Source: Bradyrhizobium sp.
Lineage (GTDB): Bacteria > Pseudomonadota > Alphaproteobacteria > Rhizobiales > Xanthobacteraceae
NCBI RefSeq assembly: GCF_016213215.1
Contig: NZ_JACRAW010000098.1
Location: 1-64,000 of the forward strand
Reading direction: 5' to 3'
DNA: 64,000 nt
Part shown: positions 8,586-56,435 of the stretch, one piece after another
How the letters are laid out: each line of letters opens with the position of its first letter
Position numbering within the stretch: the stretch's first letter is position 1
The notes under the pieces: model-generated
The model's input: only the letters and a program-made list of their open reading frames with translations
The model's database searches: none
Told to the model about the DNA's origin: nothing
Made by a program: the position numbers and the translations under genes

Positions 8586-9557
8586 ATGAAGAACTTTTCC
8601 GAACTGACCGAGCGTGAAGTGCTCGCGGTGGCCATCGCTGCCGAGGAGCAGGACAGCCGCATCTACGCGACGTTCGCTGAGGATCTGAAAGAGCGTTATC
8701 CGGACTCGGCAAAACTGTTCGAGCAGATGGCCGAGGAGGAACGCGGTCATCGCCACATGCTGCTCAAGCTGTACGAAGAGCGCTTCGGACCGAACCTGCC
8801 GCCGATCCGACGCGAAGACGTCAAGGGCTTTCTGCGCCGGCGCCCAATCTGGCTCACCAAGAACCTGTCGCTCGACACCATCCGCAAGGAAGTCTCGACC
8901 ATGGAGTTCGAGGCCGAGCGCTTTTACGTCAAGGCCGCCGAACAGACGCAGGACGTCGGTGTGCGCCGGCTGCTGGGCGATCTCGCCGAAGCGGAGAAGG
9001 GCCACGAGAAGAAGGCGGTCAAGTTGACCGGCGAGATTCTCAGTCCCGGCGTGCGGGAGGCTGAAGAACAGACGCGCCGCCGCATGTTCGTGCTGCAATA
9101 TGTCCAGCCGGGCCTCGCCGGTCTGATGGACGGCTCGGTTTCGACCCTGGCGCCGTTGTTTGCCGCGGCTTTTGCCACCCACCAGAATTTCCAGACCTTC
9201 CTCGTCGGTCTTGCCGCCTCGATCGGCGCCGGCATCAGCATGGGCTTTGCCGAAGCACTGTCGGACGACGGCTCGCTCACCGGGCGCGGTTCGCCGTGGT
9301 TGCGCGGCCTGACCTGCGGACTGATGACGACGCTGGGCGGGCTCGGCCATACCGCGCCCTATCTCGTGCCGGACTCGTGGGCCAACGCGTTCTGGATCGC
9401 GACCGCGATCGCGTGCGTCGTCGTCTTTTTCGAGCTGTGGGCCATCGCCTACATCCGCGCGCGCTACATGGATACGCCGTTCCTGCAGGCGGTTTTCCAG
9501 ATCGTGCTCGGCGGCGTCATCGTGCTCGGCGTCGGAATTCTGATCGGAGCGGCGTAG
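8586..9557 (+). CDS. mbfA: Membrane-bound ferritin-like iron exporter MbfA
   Basis: A 323-residue two-domain protein. Residues 1-165 are a ferritin-like diiron domain with the metal-ligand pattern [29 protein letters not shown] and LAEAEKGHE. Residues 180-323 are a VIT/CCC1-type membrane domain ([19 protein letters not shown], then hydrophobic segments ending [12 protein letters not shown]). This architecture is that of MbfA, shown in Bradyrhizobium to export iron across the inner membrane and to be under Irr control. The ICE palindrome directly upstream supports the name. It stands alone between catabolic genes. Confidence 0.95.
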
Positions 9558-37013: not shown

Positions 37014-37619
37014 TCATCCGGCGGCGAAGAAGTTGAGGAAGGTGCGTCCCTGGTCGGACAACCAGTCCACCTCACCGGTAATATATCCAGCGAGCCGCCC
37101 CCGCCGATCGATGATGTAGGAAATCGGCATTCCCCAAAGCACGAAGGGCGTGGGCGCCTCGCTTTCGGCCCGCCTGGCGATGCGTCCGAGCGGATCAAGA
37201 AACGGTCGAAGCCGGGTCACATTGAGCTGCTTCAGGAACGAGGCAACCACCGGATGCCCGGCCTGGTCGATCGAGACGGCCACGATCTCCAGCTCTGTTT
37301 CACCAGCCCTTCGCTGCAGCCCATCCAGCAGCGGCAATTCGCGGCGGCAGGGCGGGCACCAGGTCGCCCAGAAGTTCACCAAGATCGCCTTCCCGCGCAA
37401 CGAATTCAACGCAACAAGCTTGCCATCAATACGCTCCAGGACCAGGGTCGGGACCTCGTTCAAAGGCCGGAGTTCGACGAATTGCGAGCGTGCTGTTCGA
37501 AGCGGCGGCGGTCCGCTGTCCGTCGTGTTTGCCTGCGCTCGCGCTACGGCGGATAGAACTGATCCACCCACGCCCGCCAGGAACGCCCGGCGCGATCGCG
37601 ACAAACCTTCAGCGTCCAT
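37014..37619 (-). CDS. TlpA-like thioredoxin-fold protein with Tat-type signal
   Basis: A 201-residue exported redox protein. The N-terminus SRSRRAFLAGVGGSVLSAVARAQA is a twin-arginine-type signal. The mature domain carries VNFWATWCPPCRRELPLLDGLQ (catalytic WCPPC) and the cis-proline region WGMPISYIIDRRGRLAGY. It would reduce or oxidise thiols in the periplasm, possibly those of the nearby cysteine-rich BufA peptide. It overlaps the upstream sigma factor gene by 11 bases and is the last gene of the DUF2892-ECF-TlpA operon. Confidence 0.9.
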   Translation of the reverse strand: MDAEGLSRSRRAFLAGVGGSVLSAVARAQANTTDSGPPPLRTARSQFVELRPLNEVPTLVLERIDGKLVALNSLRGKAILVNFWATWCPPCRRELPLLDGLQRRAGETELEIVAVSIDQAGHPVVASFLKQLNVTRLRPFLDPLGRIARRAESEAPTPFVLWGMPISYIIDRRGRLAGYITGEVDWLSDQGRTFLNFFAAG

Positions 37620-38160
37620 GGGCGGCGGACCCGTCGCCTTCCGGCCCGATCAGATATTCACGAACCAGAAGCCGCGCCCGGTGCAAGCGGGCCTTTGCTG
37701 TCGCGACAGTCAAGCCGAGGCGCTCGCATATTTCCGCGATGGTCAACTCCTCGAAGTCGCGCAGCAGGATCATTTCGAGATAGTGAGGTGGCAACGACTC
37801 GAGAGCGGAGGCGAGTTCCACCCGCAGCTCGTCGCTCGACCGCTGCGCGAGATCCGCCGCAACCCGATCATCATCGAGCGCCTCCTGCCCGAACATCCTG
37901 CGGGAGAGCCGCGCGCATTCCCGGCGCACGATGGTAAAGAGCCATCCCGCAAAAGACGCGGCGCTCTCAAGCGAGCGGACGTGCCGCGTCACGATCAGCA
38001 GCGCCTCCTGCACCGCATCATCGATTTCACTCATCACACAGTGGCGCATGGCGTAGCGGCGCGCATCAGATTGACACTCGGCCAACAATTGGTCGAGTGC
38101 CGCCGGGTCACCGCCCTGTGCGCGGACGATCAGATGATGCCGATTCACCGCTATCGCCAT
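37609..38160 (-). CDS. ECF sigma factor
   Basis: A 183-residue sigma-70 family protein starting MAIAVNRHHLIVRAQGGDP. Region 2 spans DARRYAMRHCVMSEIDDAVQEALLIVTRHV and SFAGWLFTIVRRECAR; region 4 spans LESLPPHYLEMILLRDFEELTIAEICERLGLTVATAKARLHRAR. No anti-sigma gene is adjacent, unlike the sigF-nrsF pair at 52-53.7 kb. It lies between DUF2892 and TlpA genes behind a SigF-type promoter, which would make it a second-tier regulator under SigF. Confidence 0.9.
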   Translation of the reverse strand: MAIAVNRHHLIVRAQGGDPAALDQLLAECQSDARRYAMRHCVMSEIDDAVQEALLIVTRHVRSLESAASFAGWLFTIVRRECARLSRRMFGQEALDDDRVAADLAQRSSDELRVELASALESLPPHYLEMILLRDFEELTIAEICERLGLTVATAKARLHRARLLVREYLIGPEGDGSAAHGR

Positions 38161-38170
38161 GCCGAGCGCC

Positions 38171-38374
38171 TTAGCCTTCAAGCTTCCGGCCGACCATGGC
38201 GCAGGCGGGGCAGAAGCCGAACAGGCCCGACAACGCCGCCATGGCACCCATGAGACCCACGGCCCAGCCGGTCATCGTTGGACCGAAGTAGGCCAGGGAC
38301 GCCCCAATGAGACCGACGCCCATGACCACCCTGACTGCGCGCTCCCAACCGGGAACATTCTTGACGTAGAACAT
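38171..38374 (-). CDS. DUF2892 (YgaP-like) small membrane protein
   Basis: A 67-residue protein with two membrane helices and the ends FYVKNVPGWERAVRVVMGVGL and GLFGFCPACAMVGRKL. The first ATG (38380) touches the AGGAGG, while ATG at 38374 has it six bases upstream, so the ribosome site decides for 38374. The CPAC motif at the membrane edge is shared by this family near sulfur and metal stress genes. It is the first gene of the operon with ECF sigma (10-base gap) and TlpA. Confidence 0.88.
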   Translation of the reverse strand: MFYVKNVPGWERAVRVVMGVGLIGASLAYFGPTMTGWAVGLMGAMAALSGLFGFCPACAMVGRKLEG

Positions 38375-38638
38375 CTTCATCCTCCTTTTCGGACCGAGGA
38401 GAGCTTCCTCACCCCGCAAGAGGCTGAAAATGCCGAAAAGGATTCGCGTGCCCGAAACAATTTCTTACCGCCTCGTAGGACGAGGCGACGATCAACCATC
38501 CGCCTTGTGGCCATGATGATTTGACCTGCAGGTTGAACGCTTGACGTCGCGACACGACGGTCCTGATCCCAGCCGTCAACGCAGGGAGAACCGTCTCGCT
38601 TGGCCTTGATGACGACATGCACGACCATCCGAGGCTAG
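38375..38638 (-). other. Long 5' leader of the DUF2892 operon, with a doubtful 83-codon ORF
   Basis: About 265 bases lie between the SigF-type promoter and the DUF2892 start. An open frame from ATG 38628 (MVVHVVIKAKRDGSPCVDGW) ends at 38377, touching the next gene's ribosome site. Its first third has plausible codon use, the rest does not. It may be a decayed small gene, a leader peptide or untranslated RNA. Confidence 0.4.
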
Positions 38639-38664
38639 TTCGCCCGTTTCCCGCAAAAGGTTAC
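38639..38664 (-). promoter_or_regulatory. SigF-type promoter for DUF2892-ECF-tlpA
   Basis: On the minus strand the sequence reads GTAACC, 16 bases, CGAA. It is one of four sites in the window with the same elements and exact spacing; the others precede bufA, sigF and the thioredoxin-CcdA-NPCAPK operon. It points toward the DUF2892 operon. Confidence 0.75.
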
Positions 38665-38867: not shown

Positions 38868-38893
38868 GTAACTGCGGCTGACCTCGGAACGAA
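38868..38893 (+). promoter_or_regulatory. SigF-type promoter for bufABCD
   Basis: GTAACT, 16 bases, CGAA on the plus strand, ending 55 bases before the bufA start codon. Same elements and spacing as the other three sites. The form resembles the promoters I recall for Caulobacter SigF targets, which include bufferin operons. Confidence 0.8.
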
Positions 38894-38948
38894 TCAATCG
38901 ATGCACCTTCGCCGAGCCTGGCGAAGCACTCTCGAGAGGAAAAGATCA

Positions 38949-39254
38949 ATGTCTGCGAAGAATGTTGTGAGTTCGCTCATCCTCGCCGGTGCCGTTACCA
39001 CCGCGCTTGCGACCATTGCCGCCGCCGGCCCGCTGACGAAAGCCGAGGGGGAAGCCGCCATGGCTGCCCAAAAGGAGAAGTGTTACGGCGTCGCCCTGAA
39101 GGGTCAGAACGATTGCGCCGCGGGCCCCGGCACGACCTGCCAAGGCACCTCGACCGTCGACTTCCAGGGCAACGCGTGGAAGTTCGTTCAGGGCGGGACC
39201 TGCGCCAGCATTAAGCTGCCGAACGGCAAGCATGGTTCTCTGAAGCCGATCTGA
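38949..39254 (+). CDS. bufA1: BufA1-type bufferin precursor (DUF2282)
   Basis: A 101-residue precursor starting [20 protein letters not shown] with GAGAGGAAAAG before 38949. Residues 1-26 are a signal peptide; the mature part holds exactly four cysteines (45, 56, 64, 85) in [36 protein letters not shown] and GGTC. This is the BufA1/DUF2282 pattern. In characterised bufferins some cysteines are turned into sulfur heterocycles by the BufB-BufC pair, producing a periplasmic copper-binding peptide. The maturation genes follow directly. Confidence 0.93.
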
Positions 39255-39298
39255 CGCGGCAAGAACGCACGATTATCGCAGGAAGGCGGAGAAACAAC

Positions 39299-40222
39299 AT
39301 GAGCGAAGCGCTGAGCCCAAATGCGTCTGTGGCAACGCCTCTTCGCCTTCCGGCGTTTCCGATCGGCGGCCGCGCAGGAACGAGCTTCAAGCATGAGCAC
39401 CTCCGCGCGATTCTTGCCGAAGGTGGACAGCGAGGCTTCTTTGAAGTCCATGCCGAGAATTACATGGGGGCTGGAGGACCGCCGCATCGAGCTCTGGAAG
39501 CCGTGCGTCGCGATTATCCGGTGTCACTGCACGGAGTATGCATGTCGATCGGTGGTCGACAACCGCTCGATCAAGCGCACTTGGCACGCTTCCGCAATCT
39601 GGTCCACCGCTATGAGCCGGCTCTGGTTTCCGAGCACCTGGCCTGGTCGACGCACGAGACCACCTATTTCAACGATCTCCTGCCCTTGCCATATACCGAG
39701 GCGACCCTTGGCCGGGTATGCGATCACATCGACGAGGTTCAGGAAGCGATCCACTGCCCCCTCCTTCTGGAAAACCCGTCGACCTATGTCCTGTTTCGCG
39801 AATCGACGATGAGCGAGACGGAGTTCATCCGGCGTGTCGCACAGCGCACAGGTTGCCGCTTGCTGCTCGACATCAACAACGTTTTCGTGTCGGCAACCAA
39901 TCACGGCTTCTCCGCGCTGGACTATCTTTCCGACTTCCCGCTCTCGAGCATTGGCGAAATCCACCTCGCGGGTCATGCCGAACAGGCGGACGACGAGGGA
40001 GATCCCCTTCTGATCGACAGTCACGATTGTCCGGTCGCGGACGCCGTGTGGCGGCTGTTCGAGAACGTCATCGGACGGGCCGGCCCCATCCCGACGCTCA
40101 TCGAGTGGGACAGCAAGATTCCAGAATGGCCGATTCTGAGGGCCGAGGCGGCCGCAGCGCAGGAGATCCTTGACCGTTATCGGACCGCCACTTTGCCGGG
40201 AGACTGCGATGCCGCTGCTTGA
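39299..40222 (+). CDS. bufB1: MNIO family bufferin maturase (DUF692)
   Basis: A 307-residue TIM-barrel oxidase with bound iron ions. The metal and active-site motifs are in order: [11 protein letters not shown] (about 47-57), [12 protein letters not shown] (about 75), SEHLAWS (111), [10 protein letters not shown] (154), [12 protein letters not shown] (188), [10 protein letters not shown] (219), IDSHDCPV (239) and LIEWDSKIP (267). Such enzymes oxidise peptide cysteines during RiPP maturation. Gene order A-B-C-D and a 14-base overlap with bufC are those of known bufferin operons. Confidence 0.94.
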
Positions 40223-40994
40223 GGTCGCCTCACACTCCTATGCGCCGGCGTTTGCGGCAGCGCTGCTCCGCCCGGACCGGGAGCCGCCGTCCATCGTCAT
40301 GGGCCCCCGCGGAAAGGCTGCGGCCAAGCGCTACAACGTCTACCGCAACAACGTCATGGTCAGCCTGATCGACGCCCTTGCCGCGATTTACCCCGGCGTG
40401 CAGCGCGTCACCGGCGTCGACTTCTTCCGCGCCATGGCGCGCTTCCATATCCGCGCCACTCCACCCACCTCGCCGCTGCTGTTCGACTATGGCCGCGATC
40501 TTCCCGCCTTTATCGAGCGATATGAGTATGCCCGGTCGATGCCGTGGCTTGCCGACACGGCGCGAATGGAGAGGGCATGGCTCGATGCTTATCATGCCGC
40601 TGATGCCGAGCCGCTGTCGGCAGCATCCTTGGCCGCGGTCCCGTCATGCCAACTCGCCGAGCTCGTTTTCACGGCACATCCGGCCACAAGAATTGTCCGG
40701 TCGCGGTTCTCCGCCCTGACGATCTTCGTAGCCAATCGCAGCAATGACCCGGTGGGCTCGATCAACGCAGCTTCACCGGAGGACGCCCTCATTACGCGGC
40801 CGGACTATGATGTCGTTGTCCGGCATCTTCCGCCGGGAGGAGCCGTATTCCTTACGCATTTGATCTCGGGGCGACCGCTCGGCGAGGCCGCCGCATCGAC
40901 GCTGGAGATTTCGCCTGCCTTTGATGTTGCAGCGGGCATCGCCGGCCTGATCCAGGCGGGCGCATTCACCGCGGTCACATTCGGAGAACCCTGA
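40209..40994 (+). CDS. bufC1: BufC/HvfC family peptide modification chaperone (DUF2063)
   Basis: A 261-residue protein starting [20 protein letters not shown] with GGGAG before ATG 40209. The N-terminal DUF2063 helical domain carries [55 protein letters not shown]. This family presents the precursor to the MNIO enzyme. The gene starts inside bufB and its stop overlaps the doxX start, so B, C and D are translationally coupled. Confidence 0.92.
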
Positions 40995-41530
40995 TGAGAG
41001 CCGATCGATGGGGCATGGCCGGTCAGGGCCTTCAGCAGATCGGTATCCTGACCGACAAGGCGAACCGCCTGGTGCAGGCGGTGGCGGTGCCCTCCGTGGT
41101 TCAGCTTGTGTTACGAGTGGCGCTGGCGGTGCCGTTCTGGCGCTCCGGCATCCTCAAATGGGATGGCTTTTTGAAGCTGAGTGATATTGCCGTCACTCTG
41201 TTCACTGACGAGTTCATGCTGCACCTGCCGGGCGGCCCCTACCCATTTCCGGCGCCGGCCGTGATGGCGTTCCTCTCCGGATCGGCCGAGATCATTTTCC
41301 CGGTTCTGCTCGTCCTCGGACTTGCCACCCGCTTTGCGGCGCTCGGTTTGCTGTTCATGACCGCCATCGTCGAACTCACCGTACCCGACGGCTGGCCCGT
41401 CCATATCACCTGGGCGGCAATGGCTCTGAGCATCATGGCTTTTGGACCCGGGCGAATATCGATCGACCACTTGATGTCTCGGCTTCAGCGCGCGCCGGAG
41501 AATGGCCGACATTCCCATAATGCAGGGTGA
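40994..41530 (+). CDS. bufD1: DoxX family membrane protein of the bufferin operon
   Basis: A 178-residue membrane protein with about four helices. LVLRVALAVPFWRSGILKWDGFLKLSD and FLSGSAEIIFPVLLVLGLATRFAALGLL are DoxX signatures. In bufferin operons the fourth gene is commonly a DoxX protein of unknown role, perhaps linked to quinone or thiol redox chemistry. TGATG overlap with bufC. The gene name follows operon position only. Confidence 0.85.
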   Translation: MRADRWGMAGQGLQQIGILTDKANRLVQAVAVPSVVQLVLRVALAVPFWRSGILKWDGFLKLSDIAVTLFTDEFMLHLPGGPYPFPAPAVMAFLSGSAEIIFPVLLVLGLATRFAALGLLFMTAIVELTVPDGWPVHITWAAMALSIMAFGPGRISIDHLMSRLQRAPENGRHSHNAG

Positions 41531-52420: not shown

Positions 52421-53089
52421 TCAATTCCGCCGGCAGGATCGCAAGGCAACCCATTCGAACATTCGGCGGCCGAAGGTGCCTGCGAGGCCAACGAACATGG
52501 CTGCCGTCCCGACATTCCACATCAGGATCATCAGCGAGGCATCGATGGTGTGAAACAGCGACAGCGCCGTCGCGGTGATCGCGGCAATAGCGAGGCTGCC
52601 CATCAAGGCAACGGCGGTCGGACGGAGGGAAGCGGAGTAGCGCAGCATCACCAGCATCGTGAGCGACAATGGCAGGCTGGTCAGCACCAGCGTCGCAAAG
52701 CAACGCGCCGCCTCCCCCGGGCTCATTCCCTCGGGGCCGATGGCGATCCAGTCGGTGAGGCACTGGTAACCGATGTTCAAGAGCCAGATGGCAAGTGCCG
52801 GCGCCGGCAGAAGCAGCCACAACCGCGACCGGTCGGGGAGGCTGACCATGAAGGCGGCGATGGCTGCCAGGATGGCGGTAAGGACCGCGCCCAGCATGCG
52901 CAGGGCAAACGCCGGCTCGCGCAACCGCTCGACAAGGTCCGGGCGAATCCCCTGATTGACGGCCAGCAGCGCCAGAATGATGGCTGCAAGCAGCAGCCAG
53001 CCTGCGGCCCGAAACGCCGGAGGCCGCAGCCGCCGCACCGGCGTCATGCGCGTGGCCAGCGATGCAATGAGGTCGGGTGTCGTGATCAT
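52421..53089 (-). CDS. nrsF: NrsF-like anti-sigma factor (DUF1109), six-helix membrane protein
   Basis: A 222-residue membrane protein: a short N-terminal segment with LATRMTPVRRLRPPAFRAAG, then six hydrophobic helices (for example WLLLAAIILALLAVNQG and LSLTMLVMLRYSASLRP). This is the DUF1109/NrsF family, the membrane anti-sigma of SigF in Caulobacter. Cysteines at about 110 and 130 lie around the periplasmic loop; in Caulobacter two NrsF cysteines are, as I recall, needed for sensing. It overlaps the sigma gene by four bases (ATGA). Confidence 0.9.
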   Translation of the reverse strand: MITTPDLIASLATRMTPVRRLRPPAFRAAGWLLLAAIILALLAVNQGIRPDLVERLREPAFALRMLGAVLTAILAAIAAFMVSLPDRSRLWLLLPAPALAIWLLNIGYQCLTDWIAIGPEGMSPGEAARCFATLVLTSLPLSLTMLVMLRYSASLRPTAVALMGSLAIAAITATALSLFHTIDASLMILMWNVGTAAMFVGLAGTFGRRMFEWVALRSCRRN

Positions 53090-53721
53090 GGCTCGCTCCG
53101 GTCGAGCAGCATCTTGCGAAGGCTCTTCATGGCTCGGTGAACGTTGACCTTGAGAGATGCGATCGAAACCCCGCTCACGGCCGCGGCCTCCTTCAATGAC
53201 ATCTCCTTGATCTTGAGCAGGCGCAGCGCCTGCTGCTGCATCGGAGGAAGATCGTTGATCGCTTTCGCCAATTCGTGGCGGTCCGGACTGTGGTCGAGGT
53301 GTGCTTCCGGCGCGGAAACGGCCTCATGATCTAGCGTCAGGGTGATCTCGCGGTTTTTCCTGCGGCCCTGGCGACGCAATCGGTCGATGAGGCGGCGATT
53401 GGCGATCGTTGCCAGCCACGGGCCGAAGGGGCGGGCCGGATCGTAGGTCTGCCGGATGGAATGGATGGTCAGCAATATGTCCTGCACGGCGTCTTCGATG
53501 TCATGCGGATCGCGGTGTCGACGCGCCGCGAGCGAACGCAGATAGGGTGTGACCTCCTGCAACACCCGGAGGTAGGCGGCACGGTCACCATCCTGAGCGC
53601 GGGCCATGAGAATGGTCCAGTCGAGGTCGCGCGCTGAAGGCGCCACCTCGTGCGCCCCTGGCCTCTCGTCGCTATCCACGAGTCTCAAGGGCGTCGCGCG
53701 GCGATTACGATCGCGGATCAT
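53086..53721 (-). CDS. sigF: SigF-like ECF sigma factor
   Basis: A 211-residue ECF sigma starting MIRDRNRRATPLRLVDSDER (53721), with GGAGG nine bases before it. Region 2 is YLRSLAARRHRDPHDIEDAVQDILLTIHSI and PFGPWLATIANRRLIDRLRRQGRR; region 4 is INDLPPMQQQALRLLKIKEMSLKEAAAVSGVSIASLKVNVHRAMKSL, the form found with DUF1109 partners. A 158-base leader separates it from a strong SigF-type promoter, so it probably activates itself. Confidence 0.9.
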   Translation of the reverse strand: MIRDRNRRATPLRLVDSDERPGAHEVAPSARDLDWTILMARAQDGDRAAYLRVLQEVTPYLRSLAARRHRDPHDIEDAVQDILLTIHSIRQTYDPARPFGPWLATIANRRLIDRLRRQGRRKNREITLTLDHEAVSAPEAHLDHSPDRHELAKAINDLPPMQQQALRLLKIKEMSLKEAAAVSGVSIASLKVNVHRAMKSLRKMLLDRSEP

Positions 53722-53878
53722 CGACCACAGCCTCCGCCCCCGGCTCGCGCCCGAGCAGCCATGCCCGTGCCGGGCCATTTCACCATCTCGCCACCCTCAA
53801 ATACCGTTATGCGCCCGGTTCGCCTGTGCTTCATCAGGGACGCCCTCGCGTCTCACGCGGCCGGCCTCTGACAGTTAA

Positions 53879-53904
53879 TTCGTCGGAGGGGGCACGAAAG
53901 TTAC
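53879..53904 (-). promoter_or_regulatory. SigF-type autoregulatory promoter of sigF-nrsF
   Basis: On the minus strand GTAACT, 16 bases, CGAA. The -35 and -10 elements and spacing equal those before bufA. It lies upstream of sigF in the correct orientation, as expected for autoregulation. Confidence 0.8.
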
Positions 53905-53941: not shown

Positions 53942-54682
53942 TCACGAACAGGCCTCGAGCCGGCTGTCGAGCCAGGCGACGTGCTGGTGAAGTGAAATAT
54001 CGAGCGAGGACGTGATGTCCAGGCGCCGGTCCTCGAACACGTCTACCCCCGGATGCAATCTCCGCCAGCGCTCGACGGCGGCATCGCGCTCGATGAGCAG
54101 GTGTTCGATGTGCGGCCTGAACAGCACGAGCATGGCGGTGAGCCAGCGGTTCAGGAGGGGGGATGGCTCGTCGAGTTCAAGGACAAAGCCATCGAGCATG
54201 GCGATGACGTCCGGCGCCCGGTACCAGGTTTCCGCGGTCACCCAGCGGTTGGTCGTGAACAGCCGCTCCGGCATGCCCGACGGCGTCATTGAAATCGCAA
54301 CGAGATGCGACATCGGCTCGCCGCCGGCTTCGCCTGTTTGCGCGCCGACATCGACGGGCCGAATTCCCGGCGGCATGCCCTTCACCCGCATGAAAGTGTG
54401 AAAATGAGCGTAGTCCGGCCGATCACGACCTTCCGGCGAATGCGCGTGAAGGAAGTAGTGCGCATGGGACAGCGGATCCCGCGCGTCATTTGCCGGATAA
54501 TGATCCCACTCGGTGAAACTATCGCTGCCGCGCAAGGCTTCCATGACGAGATTGCTCTTCTGCTCGTGAAGCGCGTGGATGCAATCGACCGCAATGACCG
54601 CGGCATCCGCCATGCGCGCAAGCACTTCGCGCGAGAGCCGCGCGCTTCCCGGGAGTGTCTCCCCAGCGGTTGTTTTTGTCAT
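53942..54682 (-). CDS. Hypothetical protein, DUF6969-like
   Basis: A 246-residue soluble protein starting MTKTTAGETLPGSARLSREV. The block EWDHYPANDARDPLSHAHYF, HAHSPEGRDRPDYAHFHTFM is strikingly histidine-rich and conserved-looking; I associate it loosely with DUF6969 but cannot confirm. The histidines could bind metal. It lies upstream of sigF on the same strand and ends 37 bases before the SigF-type promoter; a repeat precedes it. Confidence 0.65.
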   Translation of the reverse strand: MTKTTAGETLPGSARLSREVLARMADAAVIAVDCIHALHEQKSNLVMEALRGSDSFTEWDHYPANDARDPLSHAHYFLHAHSPEGRDRPDYAHFHTFMRVKGMPPGIRPVDVGAQTGEAGGEPMSHLVAISMTPSGMPERLFTTNRWVTAETWYRAPDVIAMLDGFVLELDEPSPLLNRWLTAMLVLFRPHIEHLLIERDAAVERWRRLHPGVDVFEDRRLDITSSLDISLHQHVAWLDSRLEACS

Positions 54683-54727
54683 GGCGCCTCCGTCGAATGA
54701 GCTCACTCTTCAAAACGATCAGCATTT

Positions 54728-54806
54728 GTCGGCGCGAAGCGACGAAGCAATCCAGCATCTCTACGCGAGAAACAGTCTGGATTGCTTCGCTTCGCTCGCA
54801 ATGACG
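54728..54806. repeat. Dispersed palindromic repeat, sixth copy
   Basis: Copy of the cattgcgaggagcgaag family with a truncated left arm (tcggcgcgaagcgacgaagc) and intact right arm (cttcgctcgcaatgacg). It separates the NPCAPK gene from the DUF6969-like gene. Confidence 0.9.
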
Positions 54807-54820
54807 AAATCGGCCGCGTG

Positions 54821-55030
54821 CTATTTCTTCGGCGCGCAGGGATTGCCGGCCTTGGGCGCGCAGGGATTGGACGCCTTCGTGGTCTTCGGCGCGCACGGGT
54901 TGGCGGCACCGGCCTTGGGCGCACAGGGATTCGTTTTCTGCGCTGCCGCCGGAAGCGGAGCCGCGGCGATCATGCCGCCGATCGCGGCAATCGAGCCGAG
55001 CGTCTTGAGTGATTGCTTGAGCGTAGCCAT
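54821..55030 (-). CDS. Secreted small protein with four NPCAPK repeats
   Basis: A 69-residue precursor. Residues 1-31 form a signal peptide (IAAIGGMIAAAPLPAAAQ). The mature 38 residues consist of four NPCAPK units separated by AGAA, TTKAS and AG, ending in a lysine. Each unit offers one cysteine in an identical frame, a plausible soft-metal (copper) binding or modified-peptide design. It is the last gene of an operon with CcdA-like and thioredoxin-like genes behind a SigF-type promoter. I know no characterised protein of this kind; function is inference. Confidence 0.85.
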   Translation of the reverse strand: MATLKQSLKTLGSIAAIGGMIAAAPLPAAAQKTNPCAPKAGAANPCAPKTTKASNPCAPKAGNPCAPKK

Positions 55031-55064
55031 CCAGGTCTCCTTTGGTTTGGAAAAATCGACGAGG

Positions 55065-55790
55065 TCACAACCGCGTCGTCACGGTCGCCAGCCAGTCCGG
55101 CATGGCGCGTGTCAGGGAAGCCTCGACGATCTTGTCGATGCCGGTGAGCACAATGGCTCCGATGAAGATGAAGGCCGCGCCGACCAGCGGCTTGCCGATC
55201 TGTGAAAGACGAGCCATGCCGTCGCGCCGCGCCAAAATGGCATGTCTCGAGCCGTAGGCCAGCGCGAGCATCGGCGTTGCGGCGCCAAGGCCAAAGCTGA
55301 CCATGGTCGTAGTCGCACTCGCGATGTTGCTGCCCTGCGCGGCGAGCCCAACCGCGGCTCCCAGCGTCGGACCCGAGCACGGCGACCAGATCACTCCGAG
55401 CAGCGCGCCGGTGACGAACTGGCCGGCCAGTCCCGACGGCTGCAAGCGGTCGAGCAGAAGCTGCCCCCTCGTTGCAACCGGCGCCGCGAGCGTTGCCAGG
55501 CCGCCCTGATAGGCCGGCACCAGCAGGACGATCCCCATCGCCACCATCAGAGCCGCGATTGCGAGGCGCAGCACCGAAGCATCGATGCCGATGTTGAAGC
55601 CGACCGTCGCGAGCACGATTCCGACGACTGCGAAGGAACTCGACAATCCCGCGGCCAGCGCCAAGGGTCCCCACCGATGGCGCTCGATCGCGCCAAACAG
55701 CACGATGGGCAGGATCGGCAGCACGCAAGGCGACAGCGTCGACAATGCGCCCGCGGCGTAGCCGAGGCCCAGGCTGGGAAGACCGGCCAT
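55065..55790 (-). CDS. CcdA/DsbD-like thiol transmembrane transporter
   Basis: A 241-residue membrane protein with six helices. The paired cysteines lie in LSTLSPCVLPILPIVL (helix 1) and GVIWSPCSGPTLGAAVGLA (helix 4), exactly as in CcdA, which moves reducing power from the cytoplasm to the periplasm. It starts two bases after the thioredoxin-like gene and ends 34 bases before the NPCAPK gene. It would keep the exported cysteines reduced through the thioredoxin-like protein. Confidence 0.9.
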   Translation of the reverse strand: MAGLPSLGLGYAAGALSTLSPCVLPILPIVLFGAIERHRWGPLALAAGLSSSFAVVGIVLATVGFNIGIDASVLRLAIAALMVAMGIVLLVPAYQGGLATLAAPVATRGQLLLDRLQPSGLAGQFVTGALLGVIWSPCSGPTLGAAVGLAAQGSNIASATTTMVSFGLGAATPMLALAYGSRHAILARRDGMARLSQIGKPLVGAAFIFIGAIVLTGIDKIVEASLTRAMPDWLATVTTRL

Positions 55791-55792
55791 GC

Positions 55793-56170
55793 TCAGAACG
55801 CCCTGGCGATCAAGGCGCGAATGGCTGAAGGATCGGTGTCGCCCGTGGAGCGCGCGACTTCCTTGGCACCACGGAAGACGATCAAAGTGCTCTGGTACTG
55901 GACACGGAAGCGCTTCAACACGTCCTTCGCCGTGTCGAAGTCGACTTCGTAGACGACGAGACTCGGCTTCTCCTGGCCGATCTGCTCAATGACGGGCCGC
56001 TGCTGCCTGCAGGTCGGGCACCAGGATGCGGTTATGTCCACGAGGATCGCCTTGTCCGCGGCCTGAGCAGATTGAAATGCCTTGGCGTCGAACGGCTGGC
56101 CCGCCCGCGCAAATGGAGACAGCAACAAGGCCGCGGCAACCGCCATGGCGAGGTAGATCCGGGGAATCAT
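55793..56170 (-). CDS. Periplasmic thioredoxin-like protein
   Basis: A 125-residue exported thioredoxin fold: signal peptide (YLAMAVAAALLLSPFARAG), catalytic DITASWCPTCRQQRPVIEQI and the C-terminal YQSTLIVFRGAKEVARSTG. The CPTC motif and the region resemble the DsbD gamma-domain or TlpA type. It is the first gene of the three-gene operon, 53 bases after a SigF-type promoter. Confidence 0.9.
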   Translation of the reverse strand: MIPRIYLAMAVAAALLLSPFARAGQPFDAKAFQSAQAADKAILVDITASWCPTCRQQRPVIEQIGQEKPSLVVYEVDFDTAKDVLKRFRVQYQSTLIVFRGAKEVARSTGDTDPSAIRALIARAF

Positions 56171-56222: not shown

Positions 56223-56248
56223 TTCGTTCGGAGAATGGGAAAGGTTAC
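56223..56248 (-). promoter_or_regulatory. SigF-type promoter for trx-ccdA-NPCAPK
   Basis: On the minus strand GTAACC, 16 bases, CGAA, with the CGAA 53 bases before the thioredoxin-like start codon. It is identical in elements and spacing to the DUF2892 operon site and differs by one base from those of bufA and sigF. Confidence 0.8.
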
Positions 56249-56435
56249 AGGGGATGCCACGGAGAACAACAAAAGCTTCGATCGGCCGCCGCCAGCTGTC
56301 CTTCCGGAATATACTTCCGGGTAACGCGCATTGACATAGGTCAGCGCGTTCGGCCCTTTGTCGGAGCATGTTCCTGGTCTCGCCCGCCACGACGACCGAT
56401 CCATCCTCTTGCCAATCGCACATTCAAGCGGGGAT

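Follow-up and report, generated by a model that had tools for sequence, protein, structure and literature searches.

An Asn-Pro-Cys (NPC) repeat precursor and a DUF6969 protein form a concrete and testable pair, which recurs in many bacteria and for which no description was found. In the window, the whole 64,000-nucleotide stretch of Bradyrhizobium sp. DNA that was analysed, the pair consists of a small secreted peptide with four NPCAPK units and a DUF6969 gene that lies 115 bp downstream of it. The reading that we favour, with a probability of about 0.5 for the whole, is that DUF6969 is the dedicated cytosolic partner of NPC chains and that the exported chain is a periplasmic thiol buffer or sink made under the control of SigF. 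The peptide gene (npc) lies on the minus strand in a series of genes with the transcription order trx (56170-55793), ccdA (55790-55065), npc (55030-54821), DUF6969 (54706-53942), sigF (53778-53086) and nrsF (53089-52421), and the first four are:

55793..56170, minus strand: trx, secreted thioredoxin with a CPTC active site (Pfam E 1.9e-15)
55065..55790, minus strand: ccdA, DsbD_TM electron carrier (Pfam E 1.5e-12)
54821..55030, minus strand: npc, signal peptide followed by four NPCAPK units, 69 aa (from the sequence, homologues and a shuffle test)
53942..54706, probable start ATG 54682, minus strand: DUF6969 (PF22308), candidate maturase or loader of NPC cysteines (Pfam E 3e-72)

The product of npc is MATLKQSLKTLGSIAAIGGMIAAAPLPAAAQKTNPCAPKAGAANPCAPKTTKASNPCAPKAGNPCAPKK. 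It starts with a Sec signal peptide, which was recognized by eye from its sequence and conservation, as were all signal peptides reported here, and the cleavage region ..LPAAA/Q is followed by the four NPCAPK units. Three spaced sets of NPCA codons occur once in the window and in none of 100 shuffles. AlphaFold2 with nine homologues gives npc a pLDDT of 52, and the mature chain has no predicted fold. In Pfam the peptide has just a sub-threshold, low-complexity match to Cornifin (18 bits; cut-off 34.8), and it has no match in NCBIfam, no match in a sequence comparison with the PDB and no homologue in the plasmid collection; the open-access literature returned unrelated matches only and no relevant paper on NPC-repeat peptides. 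The first-pass annotation had described npc as a secreted repeat peptide of no described family, in an operon with a CcdA-like carrier and a thioredoxin. All of this holds, with homologues in nine other family genomes and with ccdA and the CPTC thioredoxin directly upstream. Its coordinates were also correct, but they left out DUF6969, the most informative neighbour. The intergenic segment between npc and DUF6969 (54715-54810) contains inverted GCTTCG-type segments, which by eye are REP-like.

In the family of the host, the NPCAPK peptide is found in 10 of 300 genomes, the one of the window counted. It has 4-6 units, whose N-P-C core is invariant; the nine other homologues conserve the signal peptide and have invariant cysteines. 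Two further matches (genomes G024 and G009, E about 1e-4) have no NPC repeat ORF and were dropped. DUF6969 is nearby in all ten loci, which usually also contain trx-ccdA or a TlpA-like gene and sigF-nrsF, and six of the ten neighbourhoods contain bufferin genes. At the level of genomes, DUF6969 is present in 10/10 with the NPCAPK peptide versus 4/290 without it. A conserved secreted protein of ~165 aa (FADGSKHFFLLVHREGKS..) adjoins NPCAPK and DUF6969 in several family loci (L019:7523-8098, L022:5963-6460 and L024:8753-9259), and its copy in L024 has no Pfam match.

More widely, three spaced NPCA units were sought as a DNA pattern in 85,462 species. This gave at least 119 loci, and in 114 of them an ORF has three or more NPC units; neighbour genes in these loci are ab initio ORF calls and not curated annotation. 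NPC(A)xK arrays are spread across Pseudomonadota and a few other phyla among the matches listed, and the peptide of the window belongs to this large group of Sec-exported NPC-repeat chains, a family that is widespread and apparently undescribed. Sorted by motif-based rules, the arrays comprise stand-alone peptides (at least 65 ORFs) and arms on SoxA/TsdA-type cytochromes c (at least 37), on P460-type cytochromes (at least 27) and on a BLH/TIGR01244 sulfur-transferase domain (at least 4-5), while in cyanobacteria arrays are fused to thioredoxin (at least 5), often beside a CcdA-like gene. Among the matches listed, 1592 NPC units have N before PC in 92% and A after it in 70%. An NPC cytochrome compared by sequence with the PDB gave no match.

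DUF6969, which was not searched for beforehand, is the second most frequent gene cluster in NPC loci among the matches listed. A DUF6969 profile match is present in 49 of the 114 loci listed, in 41 of them on the same strand and within 300 bp of the NPC gene (median gap 63 bp), and 35/65 of the remaining NPC genomes (24/50 and 11/15) have DUF6969 elsewhere in the genome. In total, DUF6969 is found in 84/114 NPC genomes among the matches listed versus 11/299 in the phylum sample; since genomes are not independent, the Fisher value of about 1e-49 reads as a large effect and not as an exact probability. Among the matches listed, DUF6969 adjoins stand-alone peptides (19) and arrays of the SoxA (16), P460 (4) and BLH (2) types, so the array, and not the attached domain, is the common factor. 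The converse comparison agrees: 15 further DUF6969 loci were inspected, three were cut by contig ends, and 10 of the 12 evaluable ones have a secreted Cys-repeat ORF near DUF6969. Some of these repeats are not NPC but IPC (L175), SPCGP (L177) or GCCAAE (L186), while no Cys-repeat neighbour was found at DUF6969 in L180 and L185. In L186 the secreted GCCAAE-repeat ORF (8681-9020, minus strand) lies directly beside a divergent DUF6969.

The linkage of NPC arrays with DUF6969 is therefore firm, and it extends across lineages, as for the precursor and the gene of a new maturase in a RiPP system. DUF6969 went undetected in roughly one NPC genome in four, chiefly draft MAGs or non-Pseudomonadota, as well as in those with cyanobacterial NPC-thioredoxins, hence not every NPC array strictly requires it. 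The search for NPC-DUF6969 fusions among the listed loci found none, and no paper on DUF6969 was found in the open-access literature. A gene similar to FGE-sulfatase (PF03781) lies near NPC genes of Rhodospirillales and relatives in L099, L102, L103, L117, L125 and L129. An FGE-type Cys-oxidising enzyme was considered as partner of the NPC chains and rejected: it occurs in only 12 loci among the matches listed and was not recognised in the window.

An alignment of 65 DUF6969 sequences has nine invariant residues, of which five are histidines: His79 and His81 (HAH), His93 and His95 (HFH), and His126. In the predicted structure (pLDDT 92.8, pTM 0.91) these histidines are on or beside three strands, an arrangement that suggests a metal site, and DUF6969 likely binds a metal. 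The fold search of the PDB with this model returned no chain at E <= 0.001 (best E 1.5, TM below 0.3), the DUF6969 sequence has no match in the PDB, and the viral fold library gave no match. Since no signal peptide is apparent in DUF6969, its expected place of action is the cytosol, ahead of export. Most likely, DUF6969 would be a metal-dependent cytosolic protein that modifies, protects or loads with metal the repeat cysteines before the chain is exported. Modification of the cysteines by DUF6969 is itself plausible but tentative, at somewhat less than even odds.

The regulation of the operon belongs to the SigF type, and the elements involved, with those of a bufferin operon in the window, are:

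56223..56249, minus strand: SigF/EcfF-type promoter of trx-ccdA-npc, TGTAACC-N16-CGAA, 78 bp before trx (0.01 expected by chance)
53879..53904, minus strand: SigF-type promoter before sigF (similar site)
53086..53778, minus strand: sigF, SigF-type ECF sigma factor (profile matches)
52421..53089, minus strand: nrsF, NrsF anti-sigma factor (PF06532; E 2.1e-28)
38868..38893, plus strand: SigF-type promoter of the bufferin operon (similar site)
38901..39254, plus strand: bufferin 1 precursor, DUF2282 homologue (by homology)
39299..40222, plus strand: BufB, an MNIO, PF05114 homologue (by homology)
40170..40994, plus strand: BufC, DUF2063 homologue (by homology)
40994..41530, plus strand: DoxX homologue (by homology)

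A GTAAC-spacer-CGAA element accompanied by sigF-nrsF, as in a SigF (ECF16) regulon, is present here, and SigF-like sites precede trx in most of the homologous loci that were checked. The window site matches both the ECF16 consensus and the B. japonicum EcfF promoter (PMC3420878). A SigF-type promoter common to npc and the bufferin genes had been proposed, and the sites at 56249-56223 (minus strand) and 38868 (plus strand) bear it out. In Caulobacter, Cr and Cd elicit a response of the SigF regulon (PMC3511200), Cu induces it and a sigF mutant is Cu-sensitive (PMC8224329); EcfF of B. japonicum responds to H2O2 (PMC3420878). In the host, SigF would switch the set on once NrsF perceives envelope stress caused by metal or oxidants. 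A SigF-type site at 38664 also precedes a group of genes at 37014-38664 (minus strand) that diverge from the bufferin operon: they encode another ECF sigma factor, a TlpA/redoxin-like protein and a short membrane protein. Divergent from the trx operon, the segment 56358-61251 (plus strand) encodes a small secreted CxxC protein, which has no Pfam match and by eye resembles DUF2946, two NosL-like proteins, a permease of the FtsX type with an ATPase, and a multi-TM protein that contains the motif HHHCPFC; this cluster looks like one of copper-related export or assembly.

The promoter, the co-regulated bufferin operon, the copper response of the SigF regulon and the presence of ccdA and trx beside npc are what would be expected of an unmodified copper buffer, in which plain reduced cysteines bind Cu(I), CcdA and thioredoxin keep them reduced and DUF6969 is a chaperone or export helper. 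We consider this rather unlikely, because the five invariant histidines of DUF6969 look like a metal or active site and not like a simple holdase, because NPC arrays elsewhere are seldom beside recognised copper genes and often beside sulfur genes among the matches listed, and because trx-ccdA also occurs without the peptide. This last point comes from a survey of the genus, in which close trx homologues adjoining ccdA were located in 11 other genomes and 1.5 kb was inspected for an NPC ORF: the pair stands behind SigF-like sites in all 11, with no NPC ORF within that distance. The first-pass annotation had assigned to the peptide a thiol-reducing pathway of its own; trx-ccdA as a dedicated pathway of npc was rejected on these grounds, which show a reducing pathway of broader occurrence than the peptide. 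CcdA and the thioredoxin would send electrons to the periplasm both for the NPC chain and for other clients.

The same kind of gene pair, with the same type of promoter, is known from B. japonicum as bll1027-bll1026, a CcdA-like protein and a periplasmic thioredoxin, which is controlled by EcfF/OsrA and induced by H2O2, and for which a role in feeding a methionine sulfoxide reductase of the periplasm was proposed (PMC3420878). Unlike the npc operon, the equivalent pairs of the 11 genus genomes have no NPC peptide alongside and, in one genome, at most a fragment of DUF6969. This DUF6969-like fragment (L197:2577-2812, plus strand) and a leftover SigF-like site are at the expected position of the NPC gene, which looks like a joint loss of the NPC-DUF6969 pair. 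Cyanobacterial fusions of NPC arrays with a WCPAC thioredoxin are tandem genes beside a CcdA-like gene in L047, L095 and L146, in genomes without DUF6969, and independently tie NPC thiols to the Ccd/Trx pathway.

The neighbours of NPC loci include Sulf_transp, rhodanese and sulfur transferases among the matches listed, and in the wider family they indicate sulfur chemistry at least as much as copper. Sulf_transp, rhodanese, BLH and SoxA-like neighbours outside the window are in fact more easily reconciled with sulfur than with copper, which weighs against the favoured reading. The SoxY arm holds sulfane sulfur or persulfide, and the NPC cysteines might do likewise, exchanging with the attached cytochromes, sulfur transferases and thioredoxins and being reset by Trx/CcdA in the role of SoxW/SoxV. 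Fusions to SoxA/TsdA-type cytochrome c, to the BLH/TIGR01244 sulfur transferase and to thioredoxin fit such a sulfur carrier, together with the Sulf_transp and rhodanese neighbours, whereas the P460 fusions fit poorly, no sulfur-oxidation gene was recognised beside the copy in the window and the SigF and bufferin context speaks against it. We judge a sulfur carrier unlikely. In the favoured reading, an exported and unstructured chain with many thiols would be a periplasmic buffer or sink for a soft metal such as Cu(I), for oxidants or for sulfane sulfur.

Bufferins and oxazolins are Sec-exported RiPPs modified by MNIO enzymes (PMC12452194), and the bufferin MNIO (BufB/BufC) of the shared regulon could act on the NPCAPK peptide as an additional substrate: several family loci have bufferin genes clustered with it, and in the window these genes are at a distance of 13-16 kb (38901-41530). 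This reading was downgraded and is now very improbable: among the matches listed, a BufB homologue is present in 0/119 NPC loci from other genomes, where DUF6969 is the constant partner, and profile comparison of DUF6969 by hhalign finds it unrelated to MNIO (probability 0.5%, with no fold match) and to DUF2063. An MNIO (PF05114) gene with the precursor is thus not a feature of NPC loci, and is near some family loci only. Within the profiles of Pfam and NCBIfam, no DUF2282 or other bufferin signature was found in npc. RiPP-like modification of the peptide, as suggested from the sequence of the window, loses the bufferin-type MNIO as its general rule and is kept with DUF6969 as the candidate maturase.

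The pair suggests a new kind of cysteine-peptide system against metal, oxidant or sulfur stress. Should DUF6969 prove to modify cysteines, it would found a new family of peptide-modifying metalloenzymes without a PDB fold match, parallel to the MNIO enzymes of bufferins, and the odd Cys-repeat arms that are attached to cytochromes, sulfur transferases and thioredoxins of the periplasm would be one shared maturable module. NPC-repeat proteins with DUF6969 could then be a new class of Sec-exported modified Cys peptides and arms, with DUF6969 as a metalloenzyme of new fold acting on the NPC cysteines, in a metal, redox or sulfur ligand module carried by peptides, cytochromes and sulfur enzymes and extending over Pseudomonadota; we hold this wider view only tentatively, as possible though short of an even chance.

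Bacterial metallothioneins and periplasmic copper storage proteins also have many thiols in a small protein and a possible role as metal buffer, and the NPC peptide shares both. Unlike them, it consists of tandem repeats that are secreted, its cysteines stand singly and spaced apart, and it has neither a predicted fold nor a PDB match. In the SoxYZ and SoxV-SoxW system, periplasmic carrier thiols are recharged by a CcdA-like protein and a thioredoxin. The NPC peptide resembles it by the combination of these two proteins with carrier thiols, and NPC arms are found on SoxA-like cytochromes; in contrast with SoxYZ, the peptide lacks the GGCGG arm, has four or more cysteines and is under stress control. 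Bufferins and oxazolins have in common with the NPC peptide a signal peptide in place of a leader, motifs with Cys, SigF control and a dedicated gene for a cytosolic partner; like NPC arrays, their EGKCG repeats may be fused to other domains (PMC12452194). The NPC loci differ in that they generally lack the MNIO/DUF2063 pair, have a partner, DUF6969, unrelated to both proteins, and encode an NPC(A)xK repeat. The NPC peptide is thus not a bufferin by membership, on the evidence of its sequence, its partner protein and its generally MNIO-free loci, but by its probable way of working the nearest known system is the bufferin.
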